Virus record (IMG/VR): IMGVR_UViG_3300017788_000027
Location: 1 to 59,104 of that record
DNA length: 59,104 bases
Origin: a virus
Strand: one strand, 5' to 3'
Made by a program: the position numbers and the translations under genes. The notes below the pieces were generated by a model. It did no database searches and was not told the DNA's origin. It saw only the letters and a list, made by a program, of their open reading frames with translations. The stretch's first letter is position 1; each line of letters starts with the position of its first letter. Shown here in pieces: positions 3,647 through 25,545 of this stretch.

Positions 3647-3647
3647 C

Positions 3648-6080: not shown

Positions 6081-7642
6081 TGGCTGAAGAAACCAGAGTC
6101 GCCACAGGCAGTGCAGGAAATAATCCAGGGCCTTTTTTAGCCAAAGTAGTCAGCCACTTAGACCCCAATTACATGGGATCATTGGAAGTGCAACTTCTTC
6201 ATGAAGTGGGTAACGACCCAGCGAAAGAAGGACAATTACATGTGGTAAAATACATGAGTCCTTTCGCTGGTAGTACAGCAGTGGAATATGTAGGCGAAGA
6301 AGAAACCTATAATAATACACAAAAAAGTTATGGCTGGTGGGCCGTGCCTCCCGATGTGGGTTCAACTGTTATTGTGTTCTTTATCGAAGGCGATCCTAGA
6401 AAAGGATTTTGGATCGGGTGTGTACAAGACGAAAACATAAATTTTATGACACCGGGCCTCGCAGCCACAAGCTACGCTATCGATGGTGATGAAGAAAGAG
6501 TGCCAGTAGCAGAATATAATAAAAAAGCTATACCAGTTGGCAACAATGACAGCACTAAGAACAGAAAAGCACAACATCCTTTTGCTAAAATTTTACAGGA
6601 ACAAGGCCTGTTATTAGACGATATCCGTGGAATAACTACCAGCAGTGCTAGGAGAGAAACACCTAGCACAGTATTTGGAATCAGCACTCCAGGCCCAATA
6701 GACAAACAACCAGGAGCAACTAAGGGAAAGATCGGTAAAGCAGAACATCAGATCGCCGGAGCATTTGTCAGTAGACTGGGCGGTACCACTTTTGTCATGG
6801 ATGACGGCGATGACAAGTTTCTAAGAAAAAAACCAGCAAGCGAAGGTCCGCCCGAGTATGTCAGTGTCGAACAGGACGAGACTGGTGGCGACGTTACGAT
6901 CCCACACAATGAACTTGTTCGAATTAGAACACGCACTGGACATCAGATATTACTGCACAACAGCGAAGATTTAATTTATATAGGCAATGCCAAAGGCACC
7001 ACTTGGATAGAACTCACCAGCGATGGAAAGATAGACATTTTTGCCGAAGACAGCGTTAGCATCCATACAAAACAAGACCTAAATTTCTATGCTGACAGGG
7101 ATATTAATTTAGAAGCAGGTAGAAACGTAAACATAAAATCCAAAGAAGAAATGCAGATAGAAACCGGCAAAGATTTTAACCTGCTTATAGGAGCCAACGG
7201 CAAGATACTGTTAGGACAGACTGGCGCGACACCGGGCGCAGGCGATCTAGATATAAATGCCAAAGGACACATTTGGCAAACCTCTGGTGGAACCAATGAG
7301 ACCAAAGCCGGCGGTAATATCGTAGAAACAGCGCCTAATATACATATGAATGGGCCGACAGCTCAGACAGCACCTATTCCTAAAGTGTTAAAAACACACA
7401 GCCTGCCGGATCAAGAAGGCAGCGAATTAGCGCAGACTATAATGCGAAGATTGCCAACACATGAACCTTGGCCACATCATGAAAATTTAGATCCTATGAA
7501 ATATAAAGCAGATAAAACTGATAGAGATTTAGACGGAAGAAATGAAGAAAATTCTCAGTCAATACTAGAATCTCCCGAAACTTGGAAGAAATACTCCACA
7601 GTCACCGACACCTTTGCAAAACTTAAAGGTGCTGAAGGTTAA
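6080..7642 (+). CDS. gp5: gp5/VgrG-like baseplate spike protein without a visible lysozyme domain
   Basis: A 520-residue central spike protein. Residues 1-120 form an OB-fold-like domain (KVVSHLDPNYMGSLEVQLL, then GWWAVPPDVGSTVIVFFIEG). A linker of about 130 residues follows. Residues 265-430 are short alternating repeats typical of a VgrG/gp5 triple beta-helix (KIDIFAEDSVSIHTKQDLN, then INLEAGRNVNIKSKEE). T4 gp5 carries a lysozyme domain between OB-fold and beta-helix; nothing like it is visible here. The C-terminal 90 residues are charged and unlike the T4 protein. It starts at a TAATG overlap with the hub gene. Confidence 0.75.
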   Translation: MAEETRVATGSAGNNPGPFLAKVVSHLDPNYMGSLEVQLLHEVGNDPAKEGQLHVVKYMSPFAGSTAVEYVGEEETYNNTQKSYGWWAVPPDVGSTVIVFFIEGDPRKGFWIGCVQDENINFMTPGLAATSYAIDGDEERVPVAEYNKKAIPVGNNDSTKNRKAQHPFAKILQEQGLLLDDIRGITTSSARRETPSTVFGISTPGPIDKQPGATKGKIGKAEHQIAGAFVSRLGGTTFVMDDGDDKFLRKKPASEGPPEYVSVEQDETGGDVTIPHNELVRIRTRTGHQILLHNSEDLIYIGNAKGTTWIELTSDGKIDIFAEDSVSIHTKQDLNFYADRDINLEAGRNVNIKSKEEMQIETGKDFNLLIGANGKILLGQTGATPGAGDLDINAKGHIWQTSGGTNETKAGGNIVETAPNIHMNGPTAQTAPIPKVLKTHSLPDQEGSELAQTIMRRLPTHEPWPHHENLDPMKYKADKTDRDLDGRNEENSQSILESPETWKKYSTVTDTFAKLKGAEG

Positions 7643-7650
7643 ATAATTTT

Positions 7651-8094
7651 ATGACTACACAGCGTTTATATGATAAAATCGTACTAAAGGGCAAATCCCC
7701 CTCACAGGAAGCGCCCATGCCTAGGACTTATCGGGGGTTTAGCACTATAAGCGCAGACAGCGAAAGTTATACTCTTTATGATCTTTCGTTGATCAAACAA
7801 GACATAGTCAATCATTTTCATGTAAGGCAGGGAGAAAAGCTCAGTGATCCCGAATTTGGCACGATTATATGGGACTTGCTTTTTGAACCACTTACTGAAG
7901 ATTTAAAAACGCTGATATTAAAAAATGTCGAAGATGTGATCAATTATGATCCTAGGGTACGTGCGGACAATGTTATAGTTACCAGCTACGAAAGCGGTAT
8001 TCAGATAGAATGTGAGTTAACTTACCTACCATACAACATTTCAGAAACACTGCAATTTCGTTTTGATCAAGCAAACGGTCTAACGGGCAATTAA
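7651..8094 (+). CDS. gp25: gp25 baseplate wedge protein
   Basis: A 147-residue protein of the GPW/gp25 family. The family core is plain at residues 54-85: HFHVRQGEKLSDPEFG, then WDLLFEPLTED. In T4, gp25 anchors the sheath-like wedge core and interacts with gp6 and gp53. It stands directly before gp6, as expected. No strong Shine-Dalgarno is visible; GAAGG lies about 12 bases before the ATG. The 49-base gap after it holds the late motif for gp6. Confidence 0.88.
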   Translation: MTTQRLYDKIVLKGKSPSQEAPMPRTYRGFSTISADSESYTLYDLSLIKQDIVNHFHVRQGEKLSDPEFGTIIWDLLFEPLTEDLKTLILKNVEDVINYDPRVRADNVIVTSYESGIQIECELTYLPYNISETLQFRFDQANGLTGN

Positions 8095-8115
8095 ACTAGC
8101 ATATAATAAAAACCG

Positions 8116-8122
8116 CTAAATA
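8116..8122 (+). promoter_or_regulatory. late promoter motif CTAAATA before gp6
   Basis: CTAAATA lies 28 bases before ATG 8144, close to the 26-base spacing of other late motifs here. It sits in the 5' half of an imperfect palindrome: CCGCT at 8113-8117, AGCGG at 8137-8141, with inner arms ATATT/AATAT. The ribosome-binding AGGAAG is in the 3' half. Confidence 0.65.
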
Positions 8123-8143
8123 TTACTAATATAGGAAGCGGAC

Positions 8144-11100
8144 ATGTCAAGTACCGATAGACAAAACAGATTATTAGTTGCTGAGGACTGGAAAAGAATT
8201 TATCAGAGCTTCAGAAACGCCGATTTTCAAAGCTATGACTTTGAAAACCTACGTAGAGTAATGATCAATTATCTTCGAGAAAACTATCCCGAAGATTTCA
8301 ATGACTACATAGAATCAAGCGAATATCTAGCACTTATAGATATGATAGCGTTCTTAGGTCAAAGCGTGGCATTTCGTGTAGACCTTAATGCCCGTGAAAA
8401 CTTTTTAGAACTAGCAGAGCGCAGGGAAAGCATACTAAGACTGGCAAGACTACTTAGTTATAACGCCAAACGAAATCGTGCAGGCAACGGTCTTTTAAAA
8501 TTTCAAAGTGTCTCTACCACACAAACAGTAATAGACAGTAATGGTAGGAATCTTGCTGGACAAGTAGTAGTATGGAACGATCCTGCCAATAATAATTGGT
8601 ACGATCAATTTATCAAGGTCGTTAATTCTGCTTTGCCTTCAACAAGGCAATTCGGTAATCCTGATGACAAAGCCACAGTCTACGGTATTCCTACAGAACA
8701 ATACAGATTTCAAACGTACAGCACCGGTGTTCCTGTGTTTGGTTTCACAAAAACTGTCGATGGCAGAAATATGAACTTTGAAATAGTCAGCACTGTAATC
8801 CAAGAAGGGCAGGATATAATCGAAGATCCCCCACAGGGCGGCAAGTCTCTTGCATTTTTATATAGAGACGATGGCAGAGGTGCTGCTAGTCCAAGTTCAG
8901 GATTTTTCCTACATTTCCGTCAAGGTAACTTAAACACAGGTACATTTACAGTAACACAGCCTAGTACCAACGAATTAATCGATATCGATGCCAATAACAT
9001 CAACGACACTGACGTATGGTTATACCGATTAAATTCTAATGGTGTTGAAAGTGAACAGTGGGCAAAAGTTCCCAGTTTCGAAGGCAATAATATCATTTAT
9101 AACAGTTTGAAAAAGAACATAAGAAACATATATGGTGTAGTTACTAGGTTAAATGACCGTGTAAGTTTGACTTTTAGTGACGGCACTTTTGGTACACTGC
9201 CTTTAGGAACATTTAGGACTTATTATAGAGTTAGTAACGGTCTGTCATATACAATTAATCCTAAGGATGTTAGAAACGTTAGCATAGATATACCATATAT
9301 TTCTAACTTAGGTCAGGCAGAAGTGCTAACAGTCACAATGTCATTACAGACATCAGTGTCGAATAGTGCTGCATCCGAGTCAAACGACAATATTAAAAAC
9401 AATGCACCTGCGACTTATTACACACAAAATAGAATGATCACAGGTGAGGACTACAATATTAGTCCCCTGTCGGTGAGTCAGGATGTTGTAAAAATCAAAG
9501 CAGTGAATAGAACAAGTAGTGGCATCAGTAGATATTTTGATTTAGTTGATCCCACAGGCAAATACTCTAGTACGAATTTATTTGGTGATGATGGTGTAAT
9601 TTATAAAGAAGAATATCAAGATAGTTTTAGATTTAGTTATTTGACTAGAACAGACATAGAGGCTGTGATCTACAATCAAATATTAGATGTGTTGACAGAA
9701 ACTACTTTAAGAAATTTTTATTATTCTAATTTTAGTAAAATCACTACTGACAGCCTCAACATCGCTTGGTACCAAAGAACCAACGATACTAATCAAAGCA
9801 CAGGTTATGTGGGCGATAACATAGATTCGACACCATACAGGACTGGAACATTTGCTGCTACAGATCTCCAGTATTTTGAACCGGGTGCTTTGATAAAATT
9901 CCTAGCACCTGCTGGCTATTATTTTGACATAAACAACAACAATCAATTGACTGCGGGCGCTGCAACAGTGCCAAATTCTACCGCAGCGATTTGGGCTAAG
10001 GTAGTAAGTATTTCAGGAGATGGCACTGCTGGCGGGTCGGGAGTGTTATCGACAGGACAAGGGCCAGTAGTATTAAACACTGTGGTACCATCAGCAGCAG
10101 TAGTAGGACAGATAATTCCTAGATGGAGAACCACTATTGATACAAATGTTATTTCTAGTATGATAGAATTAATATTTGCGAATAAACCGTTTGGACTCCG
10201 TTATGATATCAACACTAAAAGCTGGAAGATCATATTTGAAGGTAATTTAAATCTAATCGATATTTTTAGTTTAGGTAAACAAGGGGACAACAGCAATCAA
10301 CAACTTGATGCCAGCTGGTTGTTATTGTTTACTACAGACACAGAATTTTATACAGTGACAAGTCGTCGACTGCGCTACATCTTTGAAAGTGATCAGCAGA
10401 TAAGATTCTTTTATGATTCGTCTAACAAAATCTATGATAGTAGAACAAATAGTATAGTCAAAGATAAAATTAAACTATTAAGTGTTAACACTAAACCTGA
10501 TAGTACCGCAGCACTGACCTACGATGTTACCTGGGAAATCAACAAGGAATTTGTTGGGTTAGATGGATATGTGGACACCAAGAAGATAGAACTTGCTTTC
10601 AGTGATTCTGATGATGACAGTATAGTTGACGATCCTGAATTATTTGAAACAATGGTAGCACCGTCAACGAATAGATTGTCTAAGTACGTTGTTTTAGAAA
10701 GGTATGAAGTAGATTCTGGGCAGTTAGATTATAGGTATGTTGACAACAGCGATAACAAGATAGTAATAGTTAGCTCAGAACTCACTGTTGGGGATTTGGC
10801 CCAGTACTCAGATGGACAGTATTTTTATTTTATCGACACAGCAGTCGTAAAAAAATATGATAGGATTAATGGAAGATTTATTACAAGCCTGGATTATAAA
10901 GTATTCCAAGGAAGAAATAAAATCAAATTTCAGTATGTCCACAGTGCTGATTATGAAACACGTATAGATCCTGGACATACCAATATCATGGATTTATTTG
11001 TGTTAACTAGGGAATACGATATCGAATTTAGAAAATGGCTAACAGGTAATTTAGAAACTGAACCTCTGCCATCTAGTTCGGATCAACTAGAACTTTCATT

Positions 11101-11599
11101 GTCTCCGACGCTGAATGCTATTAAAGCCACTAGCGATGAGATCGTGTACCATCCAGTCAAATACAAAGTGTTATTTGGGGGGAAAGCCAGTTTAGATGTC
11201 AGGGCCAGTTTTAAAATAATCAAGAATTTAGAACAGCCTATCAGTGACAATGAAATAAAATCTCGTGTGTTAACTGCAATCAATGAATTTTTTGCTTTAG
11301 AAAATTGGGAGTTCGGTGACAGCTTTTATTTCAGTGAAATGTCGGCATATGTGATGAATAGAACAGCACCATTCCTAGTTAATTTTGTCATAGTACCAAG
11401 ACAAAATAATCTAAGTTTTGGAAGTTTGTTTGAGATAAAGGCTGAAAGTGATCAAATCTTTATCAACGGAGCCACCACTGATGATATCGAAGTAGTTGCA
11501 GGAATAACTGCCAGCACTATTTTAGCTACCGGATCAATAACATCATCAAATAATGTGATTTCTCAACAGAGTGTAACTAGTAAAACAGGGAGTTATTAA
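8144..11599 (+). CDS. gp6: gp6 baseplate wedge protein
   Basis: A 1151-residue wedge protein. The N-terminus has the gp6/gpJ-family pattern: YDFENLRRVMINYLRENYPEDFND at about 32-55, then LIDMIAFLGQSVAFRVDLNARENFL. The C-terminal third (about 980-1100) carries EFRKWLTGNLE and IKSRVLTAINEFFALENWEFGD, also typical of the family. T4 gp6 is 660 residues, so this version has roughly 500 extra, mostly in the middle. In T4, gp6 forms the inner ring that triggers sheath contraction. The stop overlaps the start of the giant gene (TAATG). Confidence 0.88.
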   Translation: MSSTDRQNRLLVAEDWKRIYQSFRNADFQSYDFENLRRVMINYLRENYPEDFNDYIESSEYLALIDMIAFLGQSVAFRVDLNARENFLELAERRESILRLARLLSYNAKRNRAGNGLLKFQSVSTTQTVIDSNGRNLAGQVVVWNDPANNNWYDQFIKVVNSALPSTRQFGNPDDKATVYGIPTEQYRFQTYSTGVPVFGFTKTVDGRNMNFEIVSTVIQEGQDIIEDPPQGGKSLAFLYRDDGRGAASPSSGFFLHFRQGNLNTGTFTVTQPSTNELIDIDANNINDTDVWLYRLNSNGVESEQWAKVPSFEGNNIIYNSLKKNIRNIYGVVTRLNDRVSLTFSDGTFGTLPLGTFRTYYRVSNGLSYTINPKDVRNVSIDIPYISNLGQAEVLTVTMSLQTSVSNSAASESNDNIKNNAPATYYTQNRMITGEDYNISPLSVSQDVVKIKAVNRTSSGISRYFDLVDPTGKYSSTNLFGDDGVIYKEEYQDSFRFSYLTRTDIEAVIYNQILDVLTETTLRNFYYSNFSKITTDSLNIAWYQRTNDTNQSTGYVGDNIDSTPYRTGTFAATDLQYFEPGALIKFLAPAGYYFDINNNNQLTAGAATVPNSTAAIWAKVVSISGDGTAGGSGVLSTGQGPVVLNTVVPSAAVVGQIIPRWRTTIDTNVISSMIELIFANKPFGLRYDINTKSWKIIFEGNLNLIDIFSLGKQGDNSNQQLDASWLLLFTTDTEFYTVTSRRLRYIFESDQQIRFFYDSSNKIYDSRTNSIVKDKIKLLSVNTKPDSTAALTYDVTWEINKEFVGLDGYVDTKKIELAFSDSDDDSIVDDPELFETMVAPSTNRLSKYVVLERYEVDSGQLDYRYVDNSDNKIVIVSSELTVGDLAQYSDGQYFYFIDTAVVKKYDRINGRFITSLDYKVFQGRNKIKFQYVHSADYETRIDPGHTNIMDLFVLTREYDIEFRKWLTGNLETEPLPSSSDQLELSLSPTLNAIKATSDEIVYHPVKYKVLFGGKASLDVRASFKIIKNLEQPISDNEIKSRVLTAINEFFALENWEFGDSFYFSEMSAYVMNRTAPFLVNFVIVPRQNNLSFGSLFEIKAESDQIFINGATTDDIEVVAGITASTILATGSITSSNNVISQQSVTSKTGSY

Positions 11600-14500
11600 T
11601 GGCTGAAGAGCAAAATGAATATGGCCTTCCCATCGGTAAAGGTGAAAAAAGAAGAGGTGCAAAACTTTTACCTAGGTATTATAGAACAGAGCCTAACAAA
11701 AAATTCATACAAGCCACGATAGATCAATTAACTCAAACGGGCACTGTAAGGCGCCTTAATGGGTATATTGGAAGACAAAATGCCAAAGCAGTCACAGGCA
11801 AAGATGTGTTTTTAGACGCCCCAACCGTTGATAGGAAAGATTATCAATTAGAACCAGCACTAGTAGTTCGTGATGAACTTGACAATGTCACCTTCTTTAA
11901 AGATTATATCGATTATATCAATACTGTTGATGTGTTGGGCGGTATCAACGATAATCATCAAATACTGAACAAGCAAGAACTATACAGCTGGAGACCGCAT
12001 GTTAACTGGGACAAATTAACAAATTTTCAACAATATTATTGGTTGCCTTATGGTCCCTCAACTGTTAAAATTTTTGGCCAGCAACAAAACATAACGAGCA
12101 CATATACCGTTAATATTTCTGATGAAGGTGATAATAGGGCATATGTTTTTACCCCCAACGGATTAAGTAGAAATCCTACACTGAGACTTTACCGGGGGCA
12201 AACATATAGATTTGAAATTGACGCACCCAATGAGCCCTTTAGTATTAAAACACAACGAGTCGCTGGAACGTTGTTTAGATATACTAAAAATGTATCTAGC
12301 AATGCTGTCGAATCTGGTGTAATAGAATTTACTGTACCTGAAGATGCGCCCGATGTATTGTATTATGTCAGCGAAAATAGCGTTGATACTGGAGGCACAT
12401 GGCAAGTTTTTGACATCGAGGAAAATACAACAATTAATGTCGATGAAGAAGTTATTGGTAAAAAAACATACGTTTTGCCTAACGGAGTAGCATTAAGCAA
12501 CGGCATGAAAATTTCTTTCGGTGGCAACGTTGTGCCCGCTATTTATTCTAAGGGAGCATTTTATGTTGAGGGTGTTGGTGACAAAATATATTTGATATCA
12601 GAACTTTCTTTAGAAGTTATTTCTGGGTATTCTGGTAGTTTTGAGGTACTGTTTGATGATTCGGGATTTGACTCATTACCATTCAGCGACGCCACAGCAT
12701 TTGCCTCCCAGAAGGATTATATCACTATTAATAGGGGTAGCGGAGATAGAAACCCGTGGAGTCGATATAACAGATGGTTCCATCAAGATGTGATTATTAA
12801 AAGTGCTGAGCTTGCAGGAGAACAACCGGTATTAGATCAAGACAGGCGAGCGACGCGGCCCATCATTGAGTTTGATGCAAACATCAAACTTTATAATTTT
12901 GGTACACAGACAAAAGTTGACGTAGATCTAGTGGACGTATATACCGCTGATGTATTTTCTACAATAGAAGGTAGCACGGGTTATAATATCGATGGCGTGC
13001 AATTAGCCAATGGACAACGTATCTTATTTTTAGCAGACACTGATACATTGGTTAAAAATAGAATTTTTAGAGTACAATTTTTAAATCTAACACCGCCCGG
13101 CGAAAATATTAAAAGACAAATACATCTTGTAGAAGAAACAGATGCCATGCCGTTGACAAACGAAACTGTGTTAGTTAGATCAGGTAATGATTATCAAGGA
13201 AAAATGTTTTGGTTTGATGGCACTTCATGGAAAGTCACACAGGAAAAAACGTCTATAAATCAAGCACCGTTGTTTGATCTTTTTGACGAAGAAGGTACCA
13301 GTCTCAATGATCCTGTAAAATATCAAGGGTCTACTTTTGCAGGAAACAAAATATTTTCATACAAATCAGGAATTGGCTCAAAAGATCCGATTCTTGGATT
13401 TTCCTTAGCTTATAGAAATATCAATAATGTTGGTGACATAGTTTTTACCTTTGATCTTTTACAAAACAGTTTTTCATATAAGCAATTTGTTGATGTTATC
13501 ACTGAAAAAACTGACGGTAAGTTCTTGAAAATTTATAAAGGACTTGATTACGGCACACACGTCAATGGATGGGTTAAGACATCTCTCGACAACGTTCAGC
13601 CTATAATTAGGATTTATAAAGATACAGATTTAACATCGGTGTTTCCTATTGATGTCTATGATAACATAGATGAATTATCTGATCTGTTAGTTAAGGTGTA
13701 TATTAATGGTAAACGATTAGAAAAAGAAAACTGGAATATAGAAAATGGTGCTATCTATAAAAATGTAGTACTTAATAGACCTGTGACACCTACTGATGTG
13801 GTAACATTAAAGTGCTATGCCAAGCAAAAGAAAAATGCTAATGGATATTATGACCTTCCAGTTAATCTACAAAATAATCCATTGAACAACAATATTAATG
13901 AGTTCACATTAGGGGAAGTCATTGATCATGTGGACAGCATTGTCGATAATTATCCGGCCTTTGCTGGTCAATATCCTGGTGCAAGTAATCTTCGAGATCA
14001 AGGCAATTTATCTACATATGGAATTAAATTTGTTCAACATGCCGGACCTTTAAATTTTGGCGCTTATTTTTTAACATCAAGAAATGCCAACGTGATCAAA
14101 GCCATAGAACAGGCAAGAGAAGAATACGGAAAATTCAAAAGAAATTTCGCCAATGTAGCGAAATCTAAAGGTGACTCTTTGTCCACTAAACAGTTTGTGG
14201 ATGAGATTTTGTTTGAAATTAATAAAGATAATCCAAAAAATTCTCCATATTACTTCAGTGATATGATAGGGTTTGGAGCATCTACTAAGACTGATTATAC
14301 AGTTATAGATTTTAGAATCAAAACATATCCATTGTCTAATGTTTTTTCACTTAATCAATTAACAAATAAAGCAGTTTATGTATATCTTAATGATATTCAA
14401 TTGGTCTATGAAAAGGATTATACATTTAATTCTGCAGGATTTGTCGAATTGACTACTACTGTGGAGTTAGCAGATAATGACGTAATTACGGTTTATGAAT

Positions 14501-17500
14501 ATGAAAGTACTGATGGTTGTTGTATACCACAGACACCTTCAGCTTTAGGATTGTGGCCAAAATTTGAACCAAAAAAATATTTAGATACTACTTTAGTTAC
14601 TCCACAGAATGTTATACAGGGCCATGACGGAAGTATTATCCTAGCATTTAATGATTATCGTGATGATCTCATATTAGAGCTCGAAAAAAGAATCTTTAAT
14701 AATATTAAGATAACATATGATTCTTCAGTGTTAGATTTTTATGATATTCTTCCCGGATATAATAGAAATACTGACTATTCATTAGATGAGTTTAATAGAG
14801 TGCTGGCGCCTAATTTTTATCAGTGGACGCAGTTGATAGACAGAGATTTCACCAAGCCATTGACGTATGCAGCTGAAAATCCATTCACGTATAACTATAG
14901 TAAGAATTCTGCTCCTGATGGAAGAACTCTTCCTGGTTATTGGCGGGGAGTTTATACTTGGTTGTTTGACACTGATAGAATACATATCTGTCCTTGGGAA
15001 AGTTTGGGGTACACCATTGAACCAAAATGGTGGCAAGAAGTATATGGTCCAGCGCCTTACACACGAAACAATCTAATACTTTGGCAAGACCTTAAAGAGG
15101 GCATAGTCAGAGAACCTGGAAAACCTATTATTAGATATCCTAAATTTGCTAGACCTGTTTTAGAAAATATTCCTGTAGATGATGCCGGAAATCTATTAGA
15201 TCCAGTGAATGCAAACATAGCCAAGGGTTATTTTAGAAGTCAGTTATCCGATGATTTTGTATTTGGTGATAACAGCCCAGTCGAAGCAGCCTGGCGTCGA
15301 AGTAGTTTTTATCCGTTTAGTGTTTTGTCATCAATGATATTAATGCAGCCAAATAAACTTATTGGCGCATTTATTGATAGATCCAGGGTTGTTCGTAGTG
15401 ATTCTGGACAATTAGTTTATACACCTACGAATTTAAGATTAAGATTACAGGATCTTGTTGTTCCATCCACCATAGACGATGAAGAACGTAGGATGACTGC
15501 TGGATTAATCAATTATATTGTTGATTATATTTTAAGTGATAATTTACGATCTTTAGAAGAATTTAAAAATGATCTTAAATCTTTAACAAACCAATTAAGT
15601 CATAGACTCGGCGGGTTTACTAGCAAAGAAAAATTTAATTTAATATTAGACAGCAAAAGTCCGATAGCTACAGCAGGGGTATTTGTGCCGCAAGAAAATT
15701 ATAAGATTTTTCTAAACACGTCATCTCCTACTAAAAAATTACTTTACAGTGGTGTTATTATTACTAAGATACTGACAAAGTATGGATCGGGATTTGAAGT
15801 TAAGGGCTATAGTCAAAAAACGCCGTTTTTTTATTTTTATCCTTGGACACAATCTGGTATAACAATCAACGTTGGTGGAATCAGTGAGTCGTTTATTAAT
15901 TGGACCGCAGGACAACAATACGTTGTTGGAAATATAGTTAGATTCAATAATAATTTTTATAGAGTAAAAACAACACATGTTGCTCAAACGAACATAGATC
16001 TGTCATTGTATCAAAAGTTGCCGGCACTGCCTATTGTCGGTGGTAGGGATGCTGTACTTAGAAAAGAGTGGGATAGAACCCCTGTTCTGCTAAACTACGG
16101 ACATACCTTTATTTCTATTCAAGAAGTTGTAGATTTTCTTCAAGGTTACGGGGAATTCCTAAAAGATCAAGGCTTTGTTTTCGATGACTACAACACAAAT
16201 TTAAAATCAATAGCCAGCTGGGAAACTGCGGTCAAAGAATTTTTGTTCTGGACGACACAAAACTGGAGTACCGGTGAAGAAAAATATGTAGACTGGCAAG
16301 CCAACAAATTTTTTAAAGCTGATGAGATAGTAATTTATAATGGTGATTATTATAGATCAAGGAGAGATCATACAGCCACTGATCTGTTTGATGAATCTAT
16401 CTATAAAAAAATTGATAATTTAAATCAAGACGGAGCAAGTGTTATTACAATGAGTCCTAGCGCTTTGGGACTTTCTTTAAAATTAGATTTTAACGTTGTC
16501 GATGATCTTAGGGATGAGTTTAATGATTATGAAATTTTTAAAGCTGACGGGCAAAAATTTGAACAAAACTTTATAAACTACACAAGAGACGATAATGTTT
16601 TTGCCTTTAGTCCAAGAGTCGGAGGCATTGGTATTTACGGTGCTGGATTTTATCTAGTACAAAAAGAACATGTCTTGATCATCGATAATACTACGCAATT
16701 TAATGATACTATCTATGATTTAGAAGCAGGATACCGCCAAGAAAGAATACGTGTTTCTGGATATAAAACCATTGATTGGTACGGAGGATTCGATGTTCCT
16801 GGGTTTGTCTATGACAAAGCTGAAATCAAAGATTGGCAACCTTGGAATGATTACAATCTAGGCGACACTGTAAGATATAAAGAGTTTTATTATAGTGCCA
16901 ACAAATTTTTATCAGGATCACAGGATTTCAATTCTGATGATTGGATACGACTTGATGAAAAACCAGAAGCAAGATTGATACCTAACTGGGATTATAAAGC
17001 AGATCAGTTTACTGATTTTTATGACTTAGAAAGTGATAATTTTGATGCAGATCAACAAAGGATCGCACAGCATCTCATAGGCTATCAAAAGAGACAGTAT
17101 CTAGAAAATATCATAAAGAATGATGTCAGTGAGTTTAAATTTTATCAAGGTATGATACCTGAGAAAGGCACACAAAATGTTTTAAACAAATTGTTTGATG
17201 TGTTAAGCGCCGCTGATCAGGAAAGCATTAATTTTGATGAGGAATGGGCTGTTAGGATAGGGCAGTATGGCGGTGCCGATGCCTTTGAAGAAATCGAATT
17301 TTCTCTAGATGAAGACCTATTTAAAGTTAATCCTCAAGGATTTGAACTAGTTGATACAGTAGACGAAAGCAAAGTTGATTTTATCATTCGCCAGTCTCCT
17401 GGGGATATCTACGTAAAACCAAAAAATTATAACAATAATCCATGGCCAGTTAATGATAATTTTATACCATACCTAAGAACACCGGGGTATGTTAGATACG

Positions 17501-20500
17501 ATCAAGTTTCAATCAATATTGATTCTTTAGAAAACATCTTGGATCAAAATATAGAGGTATTCAGTGAAGGCGACTACGTATGGTGTGCATTTGAAAGCAG
17601 AGACTGGCAGGTTTATAGATTTACGTCAGCAGAATTTTTCGCAAGAGACGTTGAATATGCCGATGGTGTTTTAAAAATACAATGTGACAAGGTGCCAACG
17701 GTTCAAGTAGGTGACTTCATCGGTATAACTAATTCTGAAAAAATTCAAGGATTTCATAAGGTCGATGATGTAGTATTAAATTCTATTTTTATTAGAAAAC
17801 AAATTGCTGGATGGCAATCTCCTTTTCAAGACAGTTCACAGGTCTTGATATACAAATTTTTGCCACAAAGATATTCCAGCGTTGACAGTGAAATCGACTT
17901 GCCTAAAGTATTAAAACCTAAGGAAATTATTTGGACTGATGATGATGGGTCGGATAAAGCAGCAGTTTGGCAAAATGAACCAGTATATACTAGAAAAAAG
18001 TTAACAAATGCATCGCCATCATCGAACGAGTTTTTAGGTAAAGCTATTGCCGTTAACTCTACAGCAGGAACACTGGCAGTTTCTGATACCAATACGATCA
18101 AACTCTATCAAAAATCTACAAGTATAACCGGATGGACTAGACAGCAATCGATAGAGAAGCCTCCAGCATTTGCCTTCGCCAGCAGTTACGGTGACGTGTT
18201 ATCTCTAGCACCAGATGGAAAATGGTTGGCTGTGGGTATGCCAGAAGCATCAAACGTGATGACAAAACTCAGAGGGGTCTATGATAACACCGGAGCAACC
18301 ACTTATAATGTAGGTGATATCGTTAAAGTTGGTAATACTTATTGGAAGGCCAAAAAAACAGTAGTAGGTGATGGTAGTTCTATCAGTTTAAATTCTTTGG
18401 ATTGGGAACCCGCCTATATACTCGAGTTTGACTCTACTGGTTCTAGTGCTGGAGTAATGAAACAAGGAGCAGTTGCTCTTTACATCAGTGACAGTAACAA
18501 TGATTATCAGTATTTGACAACGATAGTTAGCCCAGAACCCGGTCTTAATGAACATTTTGGTGATAAGATCAGAATAGTTAAAATAGGCAGTGATTATAAG
18601 ATGATAATCAGCGCCCCGGGATACCCATCAGGTAACAATCAAGGTCGTGTTTATCTGTTCAAATATGATAGCACTACTTTACAATGGCAGATAGATTATG
18701 ATACACGATATAGAGGATTTTATAATAATACTATACGATATTTTTCAGGAGATATAGTCTTTTTTGATTATAAACTTTATCAAGCAGTATCTGAAACTAT
18801 TGCGCAGTCTCCGACAACTACTGAATTCTGGCAAAGAATTACTGATAAAAAGATCTATGGGTATTTTCCTCAGCCAGTTGTAGACAGTACTGTAATAGAT
18901 GGGAATTTAATTTACTTGCCCCTGCCTGGTGATGATTCTACGGTAATAGATGGCCTAGGAGATTCTACGTCACAGGCATCCGAATTAGTTGAATCTATCA
19001 GATCGGGCGATCAATACGGGTATGATTTTGACGTTAGTGAAGATGGTGTTTATATAGTAGTTTCTGCCCCATCAGCTGATCAACTAGTCTACGATAATTT
19101 CAAGGGAATTTATAGAACAAACTTGACCTATGTTGTTGATGATGTTGTTTTACATTCTGGTGCATACTATAAATGTATAATTGATTTTAACGGGGCCGTC
19201 GCCGGAGCATTCGATGCTAGTAAATGGCAGTTGTTGTCAAGTTCTTTAGAAGCCAACAACGGAAAAGTCTTTGTTTATAAAAAGGACGAGGACAGTTATG
19301 ATCTTATACAGACACTTGGAAAAACAAATGTAGAATTTAGAAATGCTGAGCGTTTCGGTGAAAGTGTAAGTGTTGCTACAGATGGTAGCTGGTTAGCTGT
19401 AGGTAGTTTACTTGCTGATGATACTAAGTCAGATCAAGGATTAGTGAGAACATTTAAACTTGCAGATACGTTTGATTTAGTCCAAATCATCAAGAATAGA
19501 AGTCCAGAAGTTGTAGAAGGCTTCGGTGCTAAAATACAATTTATCAACGATAATAAATCTCTAGCAATATTCAGTGTATTAGGCGATTCATTTGTTAAAA
19601 CGATATTTGACAATGCTAGTACTACATTTGATAGGGCAAGCACCCGTGTTGTAGATTATAACATCGATAGTGGCCGTGTTGATGTCTATGACAGGTTCAG
19701 TCAAAACTTTGTCTATGCAGAATCGTTGTTAGTCGATAATGTATTTGGTGAAAAATACGGATTCGGATTCGCCGGGGCAAAAAATGTTGTAGTAGTATCA
19801 GCACCCAATGAAGGAACTAATCTCGTAAATATTGGTGCAGTTTATACATACGAAAAAAATCCCACAAAAAATAGTTGGTCAAAAATACAAGAAGAATCAG
19901 ATAAGGTCGATTTATCTAAAATTAAAAAAGCGTTCTTGTATAACAAAAAAACAAATGAGTTAATATCTTATTTGGATATCATTGATCCTGTACAAGGTAA
20001 GATATCCGGAGTTGCAGAACAAGAAATCAAGTACAAAACTTATCATGATCCTGCGACATACTCTATAGGCAACGATGCGGTCACTGTTGACGAAGGTATG
20101 GCATGGACGGATAAACAGGTTGGAATGTTATGGTGGGACTTAACTAGGGCTAAATTTCTAGATAGTTATACTGGCGAATTAGTTTATAAGAATTCTACTT
20201 GGAACACATTATATGAGACCGCAAGCATTGACATTTATGAATGGGTAGAATCTAAGATAACACCGTTAGAATGGGACGCCCAGGCTGATACAGAAGCAGG
20301 TTTATCATCTGGAATTAGTGGTAAAAGTCTGTATGGAAATGCTGTTTACAGCGTAAAGAAAAGATACGACACTGTTGCTAAGACTTTTAAAAACACATAT
20401 TATTTCTGGGTCAAAAATAAAACAGTGATCCCTAATGTTAGAGATAGAAGAATATCTGCCAGTGATGTGTCTGCGCTTATCGCAGATCCAAAAGGTCAAG

Positions 20501-23500
20501 GCATAAAATTTGTAGAATTTACTGGTACTAATTCTTTTAGTTTAGTTAATGTTAAGAACTCCTTGATAAACAGTGGGGTTGTGTTAGTTGTGCAGTATTG
20601 GCTGGTTGATCAAGACAATTTAAATGTACACAGTGATTGGAAGATTATCAGTAAAAATATCAATACGACGATTCCTAAAACCATTGAGGATAAATGGATA
20701 GATAGTTTGATCGGTGTAGATGCTAATGATAGATCAGTACCAGATCTTACGTTGCCACCAAAGCAACGTTATGGGGTGCAGTTTAGACCAAGGCAAAGTA
20801 TGTTTGTTAATAGATTAGAAGCTCTTAAACTTTTTGTTGAGAGGATAAATTTAGAACTTGCTAATCTATTAATAGTTGATTCGGCAGATTTGTCTAACTT
20901 CTTTGATAAAGATCTAGAACCATCTACGGTTTCTGGGCATTATGATTATGTTATTGATACTAATCAGGAACTTAGGTTGGTCAACACAGGTGCATATAGA
21001 AAACCAGAGTTGCTCCCAATCGTAGTTGACGGAGCGATTGTTGCTGTTGATGTTGTGAATCCTGGCGCGGGATACAAATATGCACCTCCTGTAGTTATCA
21101 ATGGTGTGGGTAAAGACGCAGTGATTAGAACTACGATTGATGAGATTACTGGCAGCATAGTCAGTGTATCAATCGTTAATAAAGGATATGGATACGACGA
21201 ATTTAATACGTCGTTGACAGTTAGAGACTTGTCTACATTAATAAAAAGTGATGTAGATGCTATTGGTAGATGGAGCATCTATGCATTTGATTTAATAAAG
21301 AATTCTTGGTACAGAACAAACACCCAGGCCTACGATGTTACTAATTTTTGGAATTATAAAGATTGGTACGATGTGGGGTACAATCAATTTGTAAAAATTG
21401 ATTATGTAGTTGACAGCACTTATCAGTTGTATACTTTAGAATCAGAGATAGGCCAGTTAGTCAAAGTCAAAAATGTCGGAAGCTTTGGCTGGGTCTTATT
21501 AGAAAAGTTTGCCAACGTCAAATCTATTGACTATACACAGTCTTATAAAGTTGTTGGTAGACAAAATGGCACTATTCAGATATCTAATAAATTTTATCAG
21601 TTTGTTGCCAACAATCTAGGTTATGATGGCCCACTGTATGATGCAGACACTTTTGATAATTCTGGATCTATAGAATTGAGAACGATTTTAACAGCTCTTA
21701 GAGACAAAATTTTAATAGATGATCTAAGACCTATATATTTAGATTTGTTCTTCTTAGGTCTGAAACATGCATTGTCAGAACAGACATTCGTTGATTGGGC
21801 CTTTAAGACCAGTTTTGTCAAAGCTATGCATAATGTTGGTGAATTAAAACAAAAAGTCACTTATAATAATGATAATCTTAGTGATTTTGAGCAGTATATA
21901 AATGAAGTTAAACCATATAGAACAAAAATAAGAGAGTATGTTAGTTCCTATAACGCCATAGATGAATCTAAGAGTATGGTAACTGATTTTGATCTCCCGC
22001 CCATAACAAAGGGGGACAAAATCGAAACTATTTTCGCTAAGATTCAAGACGGTAAAGTTTTCTGTGAAGATCCAGAAATCAATGAATATCCTTGGAAACA
22101 TTGGTTAGATAACGCAGGATTTTATGTCAGTGAAATTGTTATTATAGATGGTGGTACAGGATATATTAATAGGCCTGTAGTTAACATCATTGGTGATAAC
22201 ACAATTCAAGCTAAAGCTCGTGCGTTTATCGCCAACGGCAAAGTCACTAAGATAGAACTTTTGACCAAAGGTTCCGGATATTTTGAAGCTCCACAGATTG
22301 AAATCACTGGAGGGTTATCTACTACAGGAACTCCCGCTAGAGCTGTTGCTTATATTAAAAATGATCTAGTGAGAAGTAACCTGATTAAAATTAAGTTTGA
22401 TAGAATTACAAAGAATTATTTTATCACCGACCTAAATGCTACAGAAGTGTTTATCGGAACGGGTTCAAGATTGCAATATGCTTTAAAATGGAGTCCTGAT
22501 ACACGAACAGGAAAAACCATAGTTAAAATCAATGACCAAGAAGCATTGCGCGACACATATACTATCAGCAGTAAAAAAACTATTAATCGTGGATATACAT
22601 CATACTCAGGTCTTTTGACCTTTGACTCAGCACCTACCTCAGGTGACGTTATTGAAATTTCGTATGTAAAAGATTTTAATTATCTATCAGCTGCTGATAG
22701 AATAAACTATTACTATGATCCACAGACCGGACAACTGGGCAAGGATCTAGCGCAGCTAATGACAGGAGTAGACTACGGCGGTGTTAATATCATTGGACTT
22801 GATTTCAAAGCCAGTTCTGGTTGGGACGAGTTGCCATGGTACACAGACACATGGGACGCATTTGATCCTACATTTGATGATTATATTGTTACAGTTGCTG
22901 ACAGCAGTTATGAATTTGAGTTGCCTTATACTCCAATAAATGGCCAACAGATCAATGTATATGTTAATGGTGTAAGGATAGATGATCCATACTTTGATGT
23001 TTATGATGGCAGTACAGTACAGCCTAATGGAAGAACTGTAGCCCCTGCAACAGCAAAAATGAAAACACTTGTAGGTAACGGTGTAATTAATACATTTATA
23101 TTGCCTAATTTAGGCAGCAATCCTCCTTTAGATATAAATGCAGGTGACCAAGTTATTTTCCGAAAATCAACAAGTGACGGATCTAAACAGACATCTAATT
23201 TGGATTATGATACACAATTATCTGGTGGCGATATGGCATACACTACAGCAACTGGTTTGGCAGCAGAGGACATAATTGTTGATGGTGACGGGTTTGTTAC
23301 ACCTACAACAAGCTCGGCCCCAGAAGAAGTAGTTCCAGGTCAGGTAGTTGATGCAGTAGCTATTAAAGTTTTGCAAAGAACTGATTCAGCTTCTGCTAAT
23401 ATAAAAGCAAATAATTATATCGGTGACGGCGTTACCAATGTCTTTAACATGGGTCAGGCTCCGAATACTGAACAAGCAGTAGTGGTCAAAGTAGGAAATC

Positions 23501-25545
23501 AAATACTAGAATTAGGAACTGGATACACCATTGATTATGATCAACAAACGGTGCAATTGACAACACCGCCAGTAGATAAGGCTATAGTATCTGTTGTAAG
23601 TTTTGGATATAACAGCGAAAATATTATAGATTTAGATGTATTCGTTGGTGACGGAAGCACATTTGAGTTTGTGACTAAAGCACCATGGGATACTACAGTA
23701 ACATCATTAGTTGTTGTTTCTGGAGCTTTGGAAAATTACGAATTATTTAGAACAGACAGCACTTATGATAGTCCAGATAAGATTGGTATTAGATTCGGTG
23801 TTGCACCCATTATAGGATCTATAATTAATTATTTGATTTCTGATTCAGAAGAGCGTACATACAGTCTAGCATCAAGAGAAACAATAGTTGCTGACGGATC
23901 ATCAAAAGTATATCCGTTAACATTATCTGTAGGATCAGCATTACCTTACGAAGCTAGTTTGTTTGTTAGAAACGGTAACACTGTATTAAATGGCCCTAAT
24001 AACACATACTATACTATGGAAAACGATCAGTTGATTTATGACATACCAACTGAAAAATTTCAAGCATCATTATATGACATTAATGATTTCAAAGTGTATA
24101 GAGATGGTGAACAGTTGATCTTAATGGTGGGTTATACTCTAGACCTATTAAACGGTACTGTAACTATAAATCCTGCAGTTTATGTAGAAGGTGGAAAATT
24201 AGTAGTAAGTATACTTACAACTGCTGATTACGTTATAACTACAGATTCAACTGTAAAACTTATCGAGTTCACAGTAGCACCTACAGCAGGCAGTGAAATA
24301 ACTATCACTTCTATGTTTGATCATGATATTTTAGATATAGAAACTACCGAATCAACGATACTCAGCAATATTACTATTGCGTCAAATACTTTAGATTACT
24401 TTAGATACAATCAAATTAAAGGCGGTGTGTTAGATTTGGGTAGACAGGTTTTAAGTGATGATTATGTATGGGTAGTTAAAAATAATAATCTCTTAACTCA
24501 TAGTGTTGATTATGTACTAAAATCAACAAAGGATGCTGTGAAATTAACTTTGGACCCACAGTTAAACGATTCATTTACTGTGATAACATTCTCCAGTAAT
24601 GTCGTTAGACAATCATTCGGATTCATGCAGTTCAAAGATATGCTGAATAGGGTTCATTATAAGAGATTGAATAAAGAAAAAGAAACGGTATTAATTCAAC
24701 CTTTAAATTATTATGATTCTGTAATTAGAGTTCAGGATGCATCTATACTTACAGAACCAAATAGAAATAGAAATATTCCTGGAGTGATCTATATTAACGG
24801 TGAGCGCATTGAGTTTTTTGAAATTGATGGTAATACTCTAGGACAATTACGCAGAGGAACACTGGGTACTGGAATTCCAACAGTACATCCTATTGAAACT
24901 ACACTGTTTGATATGGGCACTAGCGAAACAATTCCTTACAATGATGAAACGTTGATTGATACATTTGTCTATGACGGCAGCACAAACTTAATACCGTTAC
25001 CATACTTGCCTAATCCAACAACTGGAACTATAGATGATGGCAGCACACTATACACAGAATGGCAGCGTGATACCATACCAGCACAGTTTGGGCAATCAGA
25101 TGAATTAGACGTGTTTGTGGGAGGTTACAATATTTCAGGAGAATGGGTAGCAAATACTAGTTATTCGTTAGGTGATATTGTGATATATGGGTCATACACA
25201 TATCGTTGTGTTACAACCCATACAAGTTCAGAATCATTTGCCGACGATAGACCCAACTGGAAATATTTCATTGGCTATCAGAGATTGATAAAGCATCCTT
25301 ATGCAGTTCATAATCAAGAACTACATAATGAAAGTCCAGAAGGCGATGTTGATTTTGAAGCTGACTTTGCAGTCAACGGAACCACAAATGCTGTAAGAAT
25401 TACACAAGAACTTAGTATTGGTACACGAGTAGTTACTGTTAAACGAATTGGACGTGTTTGGAATGATCCTGGTAGGAGATTAATTGATTCTAATAATAAA
25501 ATCGCTAATTTCCTTAAGGAAAAGCCCACTATGTTTCCACGATAA
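11599..25545 (+). CDS. giant 4648-residue virion structural protein (gp7/gp8 position), propeller and carbohydrate-binding-like modules
   Basis: It sits where T4 has wedge genes 7 and 8 and is probably a baseplate-associated protein. The N-terminus (FIQATIDQLTQTGTVRRLNG, later NFQQYYWLPYG) resembles very large structural proteins of T4-like marine phages. Seven FG-GAP-like blades start near residues 2145, 2197, 2320, 2473, 2586, 2642 and 2720. Seven CBM5/12-like modules (W...Y..GD.V......Y) start near 1435, 1566, 1746, 2226, 2372, 2503 and 4516; three of these lie inside the propeller. GxGY repeats occur near 3160-3200 and 3520-3560. Tandem GDGxT beta modules occur near 3825-4150. No enzyme motif was found. 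The stop codon lies inside the next late motif. The exact T4 counterpart is uncertain. Confidence 0.72.
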   Translation: MAEEQNEYGLPIGKGEKRRGAKLLPRYYRTEPNKKFIQATIDQLTQTGTVRRLNGYIGRQNAKAVTGKDVFLDAPTVDRKDYQLEPALVVRDELDNVTFFKDYIDYINTVDVLGGINDNHQILNKQELYSWRPHVNWDKLTNFQQYYWLPYGPSTVKIFGQQQNITSTYTVNISDEGDNRAYVFTPNGLSRNPTLRLYRGQTYRFEIDAPNEPFSIKTQRVAGTLFRYTKNVSSNAVESGVIEFTVPEDAPDVLYYVSENSVDTGGTWQVFDIEENTTINVDEEVIGKKTYVLPNGVALSNGMKISFGGNVVPAIYSKGAFYVEGVGDKIYLISELSLEVISGYSGSFEVLFDDSGFDSLPFSDATAFASQKDYITINRGSGDRNPWSRYNRWFHQDVIIKSAELAGEQPVLDQDRRATRPIIEFDANIKLYNFGTQTKVDVDLVDVYTADVFSTIEGSTGYNIDGVQLANGQRILFLADTDTLVKNRIFRVQFLNLTPPGENIKRQIHLVEETDAMPLTNETVLVRSGNDYQGKMFWFDGTSWKVTQEKTSINQAPLFDLFDEEGTSLNDPVKYQGSTFAGNKIFSYKSGIGSKDPILGFSLAYRNINNVGDIVFTFDLLQNSFSYKQFVDVITEKTDGKFLKIYKGLDYGTHVNGWVKTSLDNVQPIIRIYKDTDLTSVFPIDVYDNIDELSDLLVKVYINGKRLEKENWNIENGAIYKNVVLNRPVTPTDVVTLKCYAKQKKNANGYYDLPVNLQNNPLNNNINEFTLGEVIDHVDSIVDNYPAFAGQYPGASNLRDQGNLSTYGIKFVQHAGPLNFGAYFLTSRNANVIKAIEQAREEYGKFKRNFANVAKSKGDSLSTKQFVDEILFEINKDNPKNSPYYFSDMIGFGASTKTDYTVIDFRIKTYPLSNVFSLNQLTNKAVYVYLNDIQLVYEKDYTFNSAGFVELTTTVELADNDVITVYEYESTDGCCIPQTPSALGLWPKFEPKKYLDTTLVTPQNVIQGHDGSIILAFNDYRDDLILELEKRIFNNIKITYDSSVLDFYDILPGYNRNTDYSLDEFNRVLAPNFYQWTQLIDRDFTKPLTYAAENPFTYNYSKNSAPDGRTLPGYWRGVYTWLFDTDRIHICPWESLGYTIEPKWWQEVYGPAPYTRNNLILWQDLKEGIVREPGKPIIRYPKFARPVLENIPVDDAGNLLDPVNANIAKGYFRSQLSDDFVFGDNSPVEAAWRRSSFYPFSVLSSMILMQPNKLIGAFIDRSRVVRSDSGQLVYTPTNLRLRLQDLVVPSTIDDEERRMTAGLINYIVDYILSDNLRSLEEFKNDLKSLTNQLSHRLGGFTSKEKFNLILDSKSPIATAGVFVPQENYKIFLNTSSPTKKLLYSGVIITKILTKYGSGFEVKGYSQKTPFFYFYPWTQSGITINVGGISESFINWTAGQQYVVGNIVRFNNNFYRVKTTHVAQTNIDLSLYQKLPALPIVGGRDAVLRKEWDRTPVLLNYGHTFISIQEVVDFLQGYGEFLKDQGFVFDDYNTNLKSIASWETAVKEFLFWTTQNWSTGEEKYVDWQANKFFKADEIVIYNGDYYRSRRDHTATDLFDESIYKKIDNLNQDGASVITMSPSALGLSLKLDFNVVDDLRDEFNDYEIFKADGQKFEQNFINYTRDDNVFAFSPRVGGIGIYGAGFYLVQKEHVLIIDNTTQFNDTIYDLEAGYRQERIRVSGYKTIDWYGGFDVPGFVYDKAEIKDWQPWNDYNLGDTVRYKEFYYSANKFLSGSQDFNSDDWIRLDEKPEARLIPNWDYKADQFTDFYDLESDNFDADQQRIAQHLIGYQKRQYLENIIKNDVSEFKFYQGMIPEKGTQNVLNKLFDVLSAADQESINFDEEWAVRIGQYGGADAFEEIEFSLDEDLFKVNPQGFELVDTVDESKVDFIIRQSPGDIYVKPKNYNNNPWPVNDNFIPYLRTPGYVRYDQVSINIDSLENILDQNIEVFSEGDYVWCAFESRDWQVYRFTSAEFFARDVEYADGVLKIQCDKVPTVQVGDFIGITNSEKIQGFHKVDDVVLNSIFIRKQIAGWQSPFQDSSQVLIYKFLPQRYSSVDSEIDLPKVLKPKEIIWTDDDGSDKAAVWQNEPVYTRKKLTNASPSSNEFLGKAIAVNSTAGTLAVSDTNTIKLYQKSTSITGWTRQQSIEKPPAFAFASSYGDVLSLAPDGKWLAVGMPEASNVMTKLRGVYDNTGATTYNVGDIVKVGNTYWKAKKTVVGDGSSISLNSLDWEPAYILEFDSTGSSAGVMKQGAVALYISDSNNDYQYLTTIVSPEPGLNEHFGDKIRIVKIGSDYKMIISAPGYPSGNNQGRVYLFKYDSTTLQWQIDYDTRYRGFYNNTIRYFSGDIVFFDYKLYQAVSETIAQSPTTTEFWQRITDKKIYGYFPQPVVDSTVIDGNLIYLPLPGDDSTVIDGLGDSTSQASELVESIRSGDQYGYDFDVSEDGVYIVVSAPSADQLVYDNFKGIYRTNLTYVVDDVVLHSGAYYKCIIDFNGAVAGAFDASKWQLLSSSLEANNGKVFVYKKDEDSYDLIQTLGKTNVEFRNAERFGESVSVATDGSWLAVGSLLADDTKSDQGLVRTFKLADTFDLVQIIKNRSPEVVEGFGAKIQFINDNKSLAIFSVLGDSFVKTIFDNASTTFDRASTRVVDYNIDSGRVDVYDRFSQNFVYAESLLVDNVFGEKYGFGFAGAKNVVVVSAPNEGTNLVNIGAVYTYEKNPTKNSWSKIQEESDKVDLSKIKKAFLYNKKTNELISYLDIIDPVQGKISGVAEQEIKYKTYHDPATYSIGNDAVTVDEGMAWTDKQVGMLWWDLTRAKFLDSYTGELVYKNSTWNTLYETASIDIYEWVESKITPLEWDAQADTEAGLSSGISGKSLYGNAVYSVKKRYDTVAKTFKNTYYFWVKNKTVIPNVRDRRISASDVSALIADPKGQGIKFVEFTGTNSFSLVNVKNSLINSGVVLVVQYWLVDQDNLNVHSDWKIISKNINTTIPKTIEDKWIDSLIGVDANDRSVPDLTLPPKQRYGVQFRPRQSMFVNRLEALKLFVERINLELANLLIVDSADLSNFFDKDLEPSTVSGHYDYVIDTNQELRLVNTGAYRKPELLPIVVDGAIVAVDVVNPGAGYKYAPPVVINGVGKDAVIRTTIDEITGSIVSVSIVNKGYGYDEFNTSLTVRDLSTLIKSDVDAIGRWSIYAFDLIKNSWYRTNTQAYDVTNFWNYKDWYDVGYNQFVKIDYVVDSTYQLYTLESEIGQLVKVKNVGSFGWVLLEKFANVKSIDYTQSYKVVGRQNGTIQISNKFYQFVANNLGYDGPLYDADTFDNSGSIELRTILTALRDKILIDDLRPIYLDLFFLGLKHALSEQTFVDWAFKTSFVKAMHNVGELKQKVTYNNDNLSDFEQYINEVKPYRTKIREYVSSYNAIDESKSMVTDFDLPPITKGDKIETIFAKIQDGKVFCEDPEINEYPWKHWLDNAGFYVSEIVIIDGGTGYINRPVVNIIGDNTIQAKARAFIANGKVTKIELLTKGSGYFEAPQIEITGGLSTTGTPARAVAYIKNDLVRSNLIKIKFDRITKNYFITDLNATEVFIGTGSRLQYALKWSPDTRTGKTIVKINDQEALRDTYTISSKKTINRGYTSYSGLLTFDSAPTSGDVIEISYVKDFNYLSAADRINYYYDPQTGQLGKDLAQLMTGVDYGGVNIIGLDFKASSGWDELPWYTDTWDAFDPTFDDYIVTVADSSYEFELPYTPINGQQINVYVNGVRIDDPYFDVYDGSTVQPNGRTVAPATAKMKTLVGNGVINTFILPNLGSNPPLDINAGDQVIFRKSTSDGSKQTSNLDYDTQLSGGDMAYTTATGLAAEDIIVDGDGFVTPTTSSAPEEVVPGQVVDAVAIKVLQRTDSASANIKANNYIGDGVTNVFNMGQAPNTEQAVVVKVGNQILELGTGYTIDYDQQTVQLTTPPVDKAIVSVVSFGYNSENIIDLDVFVGDGSTFEFVTKAPWDTTVTSLVVVSGALENYELFRTDSTYDSPDKIGIRFGVAPIIGSIINYLISDSEERTYSLASRETIVADGSSKVYPLTLSVGSALPYEASLFVRNGNTVLNGPNNTYYTMENDQLIYDIPTEKFQASLYDINDFKVYRDGEQLILMVGYTLDLLNGTVTINPAVYVEGGKLVVSILTTADYVITTDSTVKLIEFTVAPTAGSEITITSMFDHDILDIETTESTILSNITIASNTLDYFRYNQIKGGVLDLGRQVLSDDYVWVVKNNNLLTHSVDYVLKSTKDAVKLTLDPQLNDSFTVITFSSNVVRQSFGFMQFKDMLNRVHYKRLNKEKETVLIQPLNYYDSVIRVQDASILTEPNRNRNIPGVIYINGERIEFFEIDGNTLGQLRRGTLGTGIPTVHPIETTLFDMGTSETIPYNDETLIDTFVYDGSTNLIPLPYLPNPTTGTIDDGSTLYTEWQRDTIPAQFGQSDELDVFVGGYNISGEWVANTSYSLGDIVIYGSYTYRCVTTHTSSESFADDRPNWKYFIGYQRLIKHPYAVHNQELHNESPEGDVDFEADFAVNGTTNAVRITQELSIGTRVVTVKRIGRVWNDPGRRLIDSNNKIANFLKEKPTMFPR
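18031..19845 (+). repeat. seven-bladed FG-GAP-like propeller coding region with inserted modules
   Basis: Seven blade motifs of the form (F/Y)G..(I/V)...DG..LAVG or VVSAP are encoded here. Distances between blade starts are about 52, 123, 153, 113, 56 and 78 residues. The three long gaps each contain one carbohydrate-binding-like module, and the short gaps contain none. Confidence 0.65.
23068..24060 (+). repeat. tandem GDGxT-type beta modules in the giant protein
   Basis: At least four successive modules begin LVGNGVINTF, YIGDGVTNVF, FVGDGSTFEF and VADGSSKVY. Each is followed by a stretch with a Val-rich strand and a later P..G or A..GS turn. They look like repeated beta-sandwich modules as found in phage tail proteins. 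Confidence 0.5.

Follow-up and report, generated by a model that had tools for sequence, protein, structure and literature searches.

We found that P0001, a giant tail protein of an uncultured T4-like phage, encoded in the window (the whole stretch of 59,104 nucleotides that was analyzed, a linear virus record), carries a seven-bladed beta-propeller of the integrin-alpha type with three small modules inserted into it, and this architecture was confirmed with high confidence. The features are listed below by position in the window, strand, and identity.

11599..25545, + strand: P0001, 4648 aa, in the slot after gp6 (the gp7/VrlC position) of a baseplate cluster; PHROG_10938 virion structural protein, E 0
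15883..16032, + strand: module 1, aa 1429-1478 (HMM 1434-1475), N-terminal of the propeller; Pfam CBM_5_12 4.2e-7
16276..16422, + strand: module 2, aa 1560-1608 (HMM 1565-1606), N-terminal of the propeller; Pfam CBM_5_12 6.2e-5
16825..16968, + strand: module 3, aa 1743-1790 (HMM 1745-1786, 6.9e-17), N-terminal of the propeller; the best conserved in the family, with 48% mean between-clade identity
18001..19905, + strand: FG-GAP/integrin-alpha-type beta-propeller of seven blades, three inserts included, about aa 2135-2769; from AF2, an integrin profile, and VIA-align
18268..18438, + strand: module 4, aa 2224-2280 (HMM 2234-2270, 4.9e-10), in the B-C loop of blade 2; strands E144-147, 161-164, 167-171, and 189-191; pLDDT about 72-89
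18703..18852, + strand: module 5, aa 2369-2418 (HMM 2375-2414, 5.6e-7), in the D3-A4 loop; strands E291-294, 306-309, 312-316, and 331-334; pLDDT about 70-87 in model 2
18853..18999, + strand: linker from module 5 to blade 4, with aa 2428-2463 (~36 residues) of low confidence; pLDDT <50 at model residues 348-383
19093..19254, + strand: module 6, aa 2499-2552 (HMM 2503-2546, 3.2e-10), in the B-C loop of blade 4; strands E421-424, 436-439, 442-446, and 463-467; pLDDT about 77-91
25135..25284, + strand: module 7, aa 4513-4562 (HMM 4514-4556), near the C-terminus; Pfam CBM_5_12 4e-9, chitinase A1 domain 1ED7 3.9e-5

The propeller and the protein that carries it

An initial annotation of the sequence had described seven FG-GAP-like blade motifs in the giant protein, with long gaps after blades 2, 3, and 4 and gaps of 52-78 residues elsewhere. 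The motif glycines were located at aa 2147, 2198, 2321, 2474, 2587, 2643, and 2721, with window position 18031 (aa 2145) falling exactly at blade 1, and the successive gaps of 51, 123, 153, 113, 56, and 78 residues agree with that description apart from the lower bound, which is 51. Two AF2 models, built from 27 aligned sequences (model 1; pLDDT 73.8, pTM 0.76) and from 45 (model 2; pLDDT 84.1, pTM 0.85), both produced seven blades of four antiparallel strands, as judged from the strand order, with the propeller spanning residues ~2128-2765. VIA-align superposed them on integrin alpha headpieces with Z 34 for model 1 and Z 22 for model 2 (rmsd 3.3-3.4; about 353 residues aligned), and it was noted that model 2 matches WD40 propellers about equally well. 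A profile of 27 relatives matched the propeller of integrin alpha-4 at E 4.7e-8; the profile alone succeeded, as phmmer with the single propeller sequence returned no matches in the PDB. Calcium-binding loops of the form DxDxDG were absent from aa 2081-2790, and the propeller is therefore integrin-like in fold and not an integrin.

We also considered whether the motifs might be chance repeats within a beta-rich protein that has no propeller. The Pfam model FG-GAP_2 matched P0001 at 5e-5, over its cut-off, with only one stretch passing, and PF01839 found no match in the window record, both of which such a reading would accommodate. It was refuted computationally by the integrin alpha-4 profile match, by the two AF2 models, and by the relative L002, in which FG-GAP_2 matches four repeats at 5.7e-17, and we assign it a negligible probability.

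L002 is one of the insert-free homologues whose comparison had been proposed in the initial annotation. It is 45% identical to P0001 over the region and possesses seven blades at a spacing of about 52-64 residues with zero modules; its propeller region is 224 residues shorter, and the P0001 inserts beyond normal spacing total about 226. Because L002 is even-bladed without modules and the difference in length corresponds to the inserts, these can be regarded as removable units.

The gene for P0001 lies directly 3' of gp6, where a gp7/BW3- or VrlC-type protein would be placed, following a T4-like baseplate cluster (3344-11599) of gp53-like, gp5-like hub, gp25-like, and gp6-like genes. Its N-terminal ~1900 residues have homologues among the giant structural proteins of jumbo phages (28% in PA5oct, 27% in Atu_ph07). 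The annotation of the PA5oct homologue EST35_0128 carries an ESI-MS/MS note, which we read as detection in virions and which bears out the earlier view of P0001 as a virion protein. Within P0001, repeats of the GxGY..AP.V.I.G type occupy aa 3140-3600 (window 21016-22398) and are like those of the Atu_ph07 insertion. A gene in the baseplate cluster of HTVC008M contains similar repeats and bears the annotation "head closure Hc2", which suggests that this annotation is driven by the repeat.

Downstream of P0001, neighboring ORF pairs within 32405-36216 (32405/33231 and 34610/35518) look by eye like paralogous glycosyltransferases, with no Pfam match, and a 409-aa ORF (36207-37436; no Pfam match) has an N-terminal half of ~15-30-residue near-repeats (DFRKAVxxNNLxSIFRIL). 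Eight radical SAM genes follow in about 12 kb (37433-49048; at 37433, 38599, 39642, 41041, 43227, 44524, 46771, and 47882), including one below the Pfam cut-off (38599) and three that NF033640 marks, with scores far over the cut-off, as twitch-domain radical SAM proteins. Radical SAM cassettes have been reported in the host-recognition clusters of pelagimyophages (PMC7029224), and the eight found here are a striking number.

Seven modules and their relation to CBM5/12 domains

A family HMM recovered seven modules in P0001, of which three lie N-terminal of the propeller, three inside it, and one near the C-terminus, all at the places named in the initial annotation. Pfam CBM_5_12, which is independent of this HMM, matched the whole protein at 1.3e-18 (67 bits; cut-off 26.2). 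Taken singly, modules 1 and 7 pass the cut-off and the propeller modules 4-6 do not (0.06, no match, and 9e-4, respectively). In an alignment of propeller modules from the family, however, 19 of the 23 members matched CBM_5_12 (E<=1; best 3.1e-7), and the propeller-module profile matched chitin-binding domains of known structure (2RTS at 4.5e-8 and 1ED7 at 1e-4). A short module regex gave 10 matches in P0001, where shuffled sequences gave 2 on average and never more than 6, which is weak evidence alone; the identification is firm because the profiles (CBM_5_12 at 1.3e-18 and FG-GAP_2 over its cut-off) back this motif count.

In AF2 model 2, modules 4-6 each form an independent four-stranded unit with equal strand spacing, at model residues 144-191 (between B2 and C2), 291-334 (after D3, before A4), and 421-467 (between B4 and C4). 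Module 5 was unfolded in model 1, because few of the aligned relatives had it, and folded in model 2 with its 45 sequences. The claim of one module per long gap was borne out for all three, with the correction that the module assigned to blade 3 lies after D3, in the connection between blades 3 and 4. In the propeller fold, the B-C loops and the D-A loops lie on one common face. For this reason, propeller topology supports a projection of modules 4, 5, and 6 (B2-C2, D3-A4, and B4-C4 loops) from one face, which is the part of the initial claim of sugar-binding loops on one face that stands.

The sugar-binding part fared less well. Core residues are kept in the propeller modules (Y in 100%, V in 98%, and the final W in 86%), whereas the residue reported to contact chitin in ChiA1, Trp687 (Hara et al. 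2013, as cited in PMC8449059), aligns with Phe in module 7. None of the seven P0001 modules has Trp at this position, and the chitin-contacting aromatics (Trp687; the Tyr-Trp pair of CBM5) were not found in them. Across the family, this column, assigned by eye, holds Phe in 86% of pre-propeller modules compared to 27% of propeller modules. Chitin-type sugar binding is accordingly unlikely as it stands, and another ligand is possible. The propeller modules share the CBM5/12 core, although singly they fall short of the Pfam cut-off, and they do not conserve the exposed chitin-binding tryptophan.

Gain and loss of modules across the family

We assessed relatives from viral contigs, among which about 48 distinct forms have an inter-anchor region long enough for a propeller, and 43 were scored for occupancy. 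A site was called occupied by length or by HMM match, with length alone deciding at, for example, D3-A4 in several L006-clade members and B2-C2 in L057, L080, and L083. All three sites (B2-C2, D3-A4, B4-C4) were occupied in 27 forms and none in nine; four had only B2-C2, two only B4-C4, and one the first two sites. Parsimony on a tree of the flanking conserved sequence required at least 8, at least 5, and at least 5 changes for B2-C2, D3-A4, and B4-C4, respectively, and L002, with no site filled, is sister to the window and L001, with all three filled (support 0.99). Because related phages gained or lost them repeatedly, the propeller modules look like exchangeable attachments. Among 45 aligned propellers, HMM module matches fell at B4-C4 (33), B2-C2 (30), D3-A4 (23), and D1-A2 (2), all of them B-C or D-A loops with none unassigned; the fourth site, D1-A2, is occupied in L029 and L031, and B4-C4 holds tandem modules in L081, L087, and L138.

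Between-clade identity within a site was 27-29% for the propeller modules, compared to 48% for pre-propeller module 3, and the pre-propeller modules are near-constant in number, with 2-3 in almost all family members. An origin of the three propeller modules by recent duplication within the protein was not favored, as identity within a site (27-29%) exceeds that between sites (23-26%) by a small margin.

Two further kinds of variation were noted. Loop C3-D3 holds a different domain of ~70 aa (GMxVxGTGFxxGQxVxxVxxST) in L022, L028, L044, L049, L057, L078, L097, and L107; by topology it lies on the opposite face from the CBM-type modules, L078 and L107 carry both kinds, and a comparison with known structures gave no credible match (best E 0.018, taken as chance). 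The whole region between the anchors is itself variable, from 333 residues in PA5oct (L068) to about 630-1300 in the propeller phages, and in Atu_ph07 (L069) its 1546 residues are rich in GxGY/AP repeats.

The modules could also be near-neutral surface spacers or stabilizers, spread by duplication in a protein that abounds in this fold, with little consequence whether they stay or disappear. Copies N-terminal of the propeller and at the C-terminus, the repeated loss of inserts, and the filling of loop C3-D3 by a different domain in several relatives are all compatible with this. However, widely diverged clades fill the same three sites and the module core is intact, which together indicate that the fold is maintained by selection, and identity is slightly higher within than between sites. 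We consider a spacer role improbable.

Candidate roles and comparison with known systems

Our tentative reading, held at somewhat short of even confidence, is that the baseplate carries the propeller on its exterior as a scaffold and that the three propeller modules serve as accessory recognition elements, which would contact a polysaccharide or another envelope ligand on the host surface weakly and multivalently. The three pre-propeller modules, nearly constant in the family, would more likely have a structural role. Accessory recognition is moderately favored over a structural joint because the propeller modules come and go and diverge while the pre-propeller ones are near-constant.

Alternatively, the propeller modules may be adaptors internal to the virion that dock fibers, spikes, or a neighboring copy of the giant protein without binding sugar, a reading that we consider possible but doubtful. 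In the PDB, the propeller-module profile matches All3316 (Cis13; 3e-8) best; this tail-fiber-like protein belongs to the Anabaena contractile injection system and attaches to the baseplate through its N-terminal domain (PMC8894136). The profile also matches residues 79-118 of the Milano tail spike gp124 (9.2e-6), inside the N-terminal tail-binding module (PMC10811340), as well as the N-terminal parts of two further tail fibers. Docking is further consistent with the lack of conservation of the known sugar-contacting aromatics. Also against sugar binding, a carbohydrate-binding module in gp80, the neck fiber of phage A-1(L), did not bind the host (PMC10966104). "Carbohydrate-binding" annotations in phage tails may, from these cases, mark docking domains. 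However, repeated changes of occupancy would be odd for an essential joint, and L002, which lacks all three modules, retains the compared neighboring fiber genes downstream (p202 at 86%, p696 at 65%, p420 at 57%, and a partial p491 at 73% identity). The modules are consequently not needed to hold the products of these four genes, which points to accessory recognition rather than obligatory docking.

An extension of the recognition reading, which we regard as rather unlikely, is that the integrin-like propeller of the baseplate is a socket board whose outer-face loops gain and lose modules and so tune host attachment independently of the tail fibers. Phage host range is usually sought in the tail fibers, and P0001 offers a second, separate place where modules vary throughout the family. 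What they do is directly testable because L002 and the pair of L001 and the window differ in inserts yet share the neighboring fiber genes.

In its genomic setting, P0001 resembles VrlC of pelagimyophages and cyanomyophages, which takes the slot after gp6 in place of T4 gp7; tail fibers come next, along with a host-recognition cluster in which radical SAM genes can occur (PMC7029224). The window is arranged in the same way. An identity with VrlC by sequence was not found, however, as HTVC008M VrlC showed no significant similarity to the P0001-family profiles (best E 0.04). The giants of PA5oct (EST35_0128), Atu_ph07 (AUZ94962), and RaK2-like jumbo phages share the homologous N-terminal ~1900 residues and are also placed after gp6, and those of PA5oct and Atu_ph07 share in addition a conserved block C-terminal to the propeller. 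They differ between the anchors, where PA5oct has 333 residues and no propeller compared to 856 residues in P0001, and in Atu_ph07 other repeats fill 1546 residues.

FG-GAP propellers resembling that of P0001 were found by Foldseek in S-TIM5 (H6WG31; E 1.2e-10), the Atu_ph07 hemagglutinin (A0A2L0UZX4; 3.3e-13), and an uncultured Caudovirales phage (A0A6J5L0K2; 6e-20, with 30% identity over 247 columns). In the literature searched, we found no report of CBM-type modules in the loops of these three, nor a direct report of any integrin-like or FG-GAP propeller of a phage tail bearing such inserts.

The modules share with CBM5/12 domains (chitinase A1 1ED7, chitinase 2RTS) the core W..Y..GD.V..Y..Y...W and a small fold rich in strands, with profile E-values from 4.5e-8 to 1e-4; they differ in that the exposed chitin-binding tryptophan is not kept in the propeller modules and in that these sit in loops, whereas known CBM5/12 domains are linked end to end. 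With Cis13 and Milano gp124, P0001 has in common the module itself, by profile (3e-8 and 9.2e-6), and a contractile tail machine, but there the modules occupy the N-terminal attachment part of trimeric fibers and here the loops of a propeller.

A close architectural parallel is the integrin alpha subunit, with seven FG-GAP-type blades (profile E 4.7e-8; about 353 residues superposed at Z 22-34) and a ligand-binding domain, alpha-I, inserted at an inter-blade connection of the propeller (PMC3791550). The viral modules would act much like this domain, which sits between two blades of a propeller of this type and carries ligand binding. Integrins have DxDxDG calcium loops that the P0001 propeller does not, and WD40 propellers fit model 2 about equally. 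P0001 is built like a metazoan receptor head whose inserted domain carries ligand binding, with three small modules of CBM5/12 fold in place of the one 200-residue I domain.
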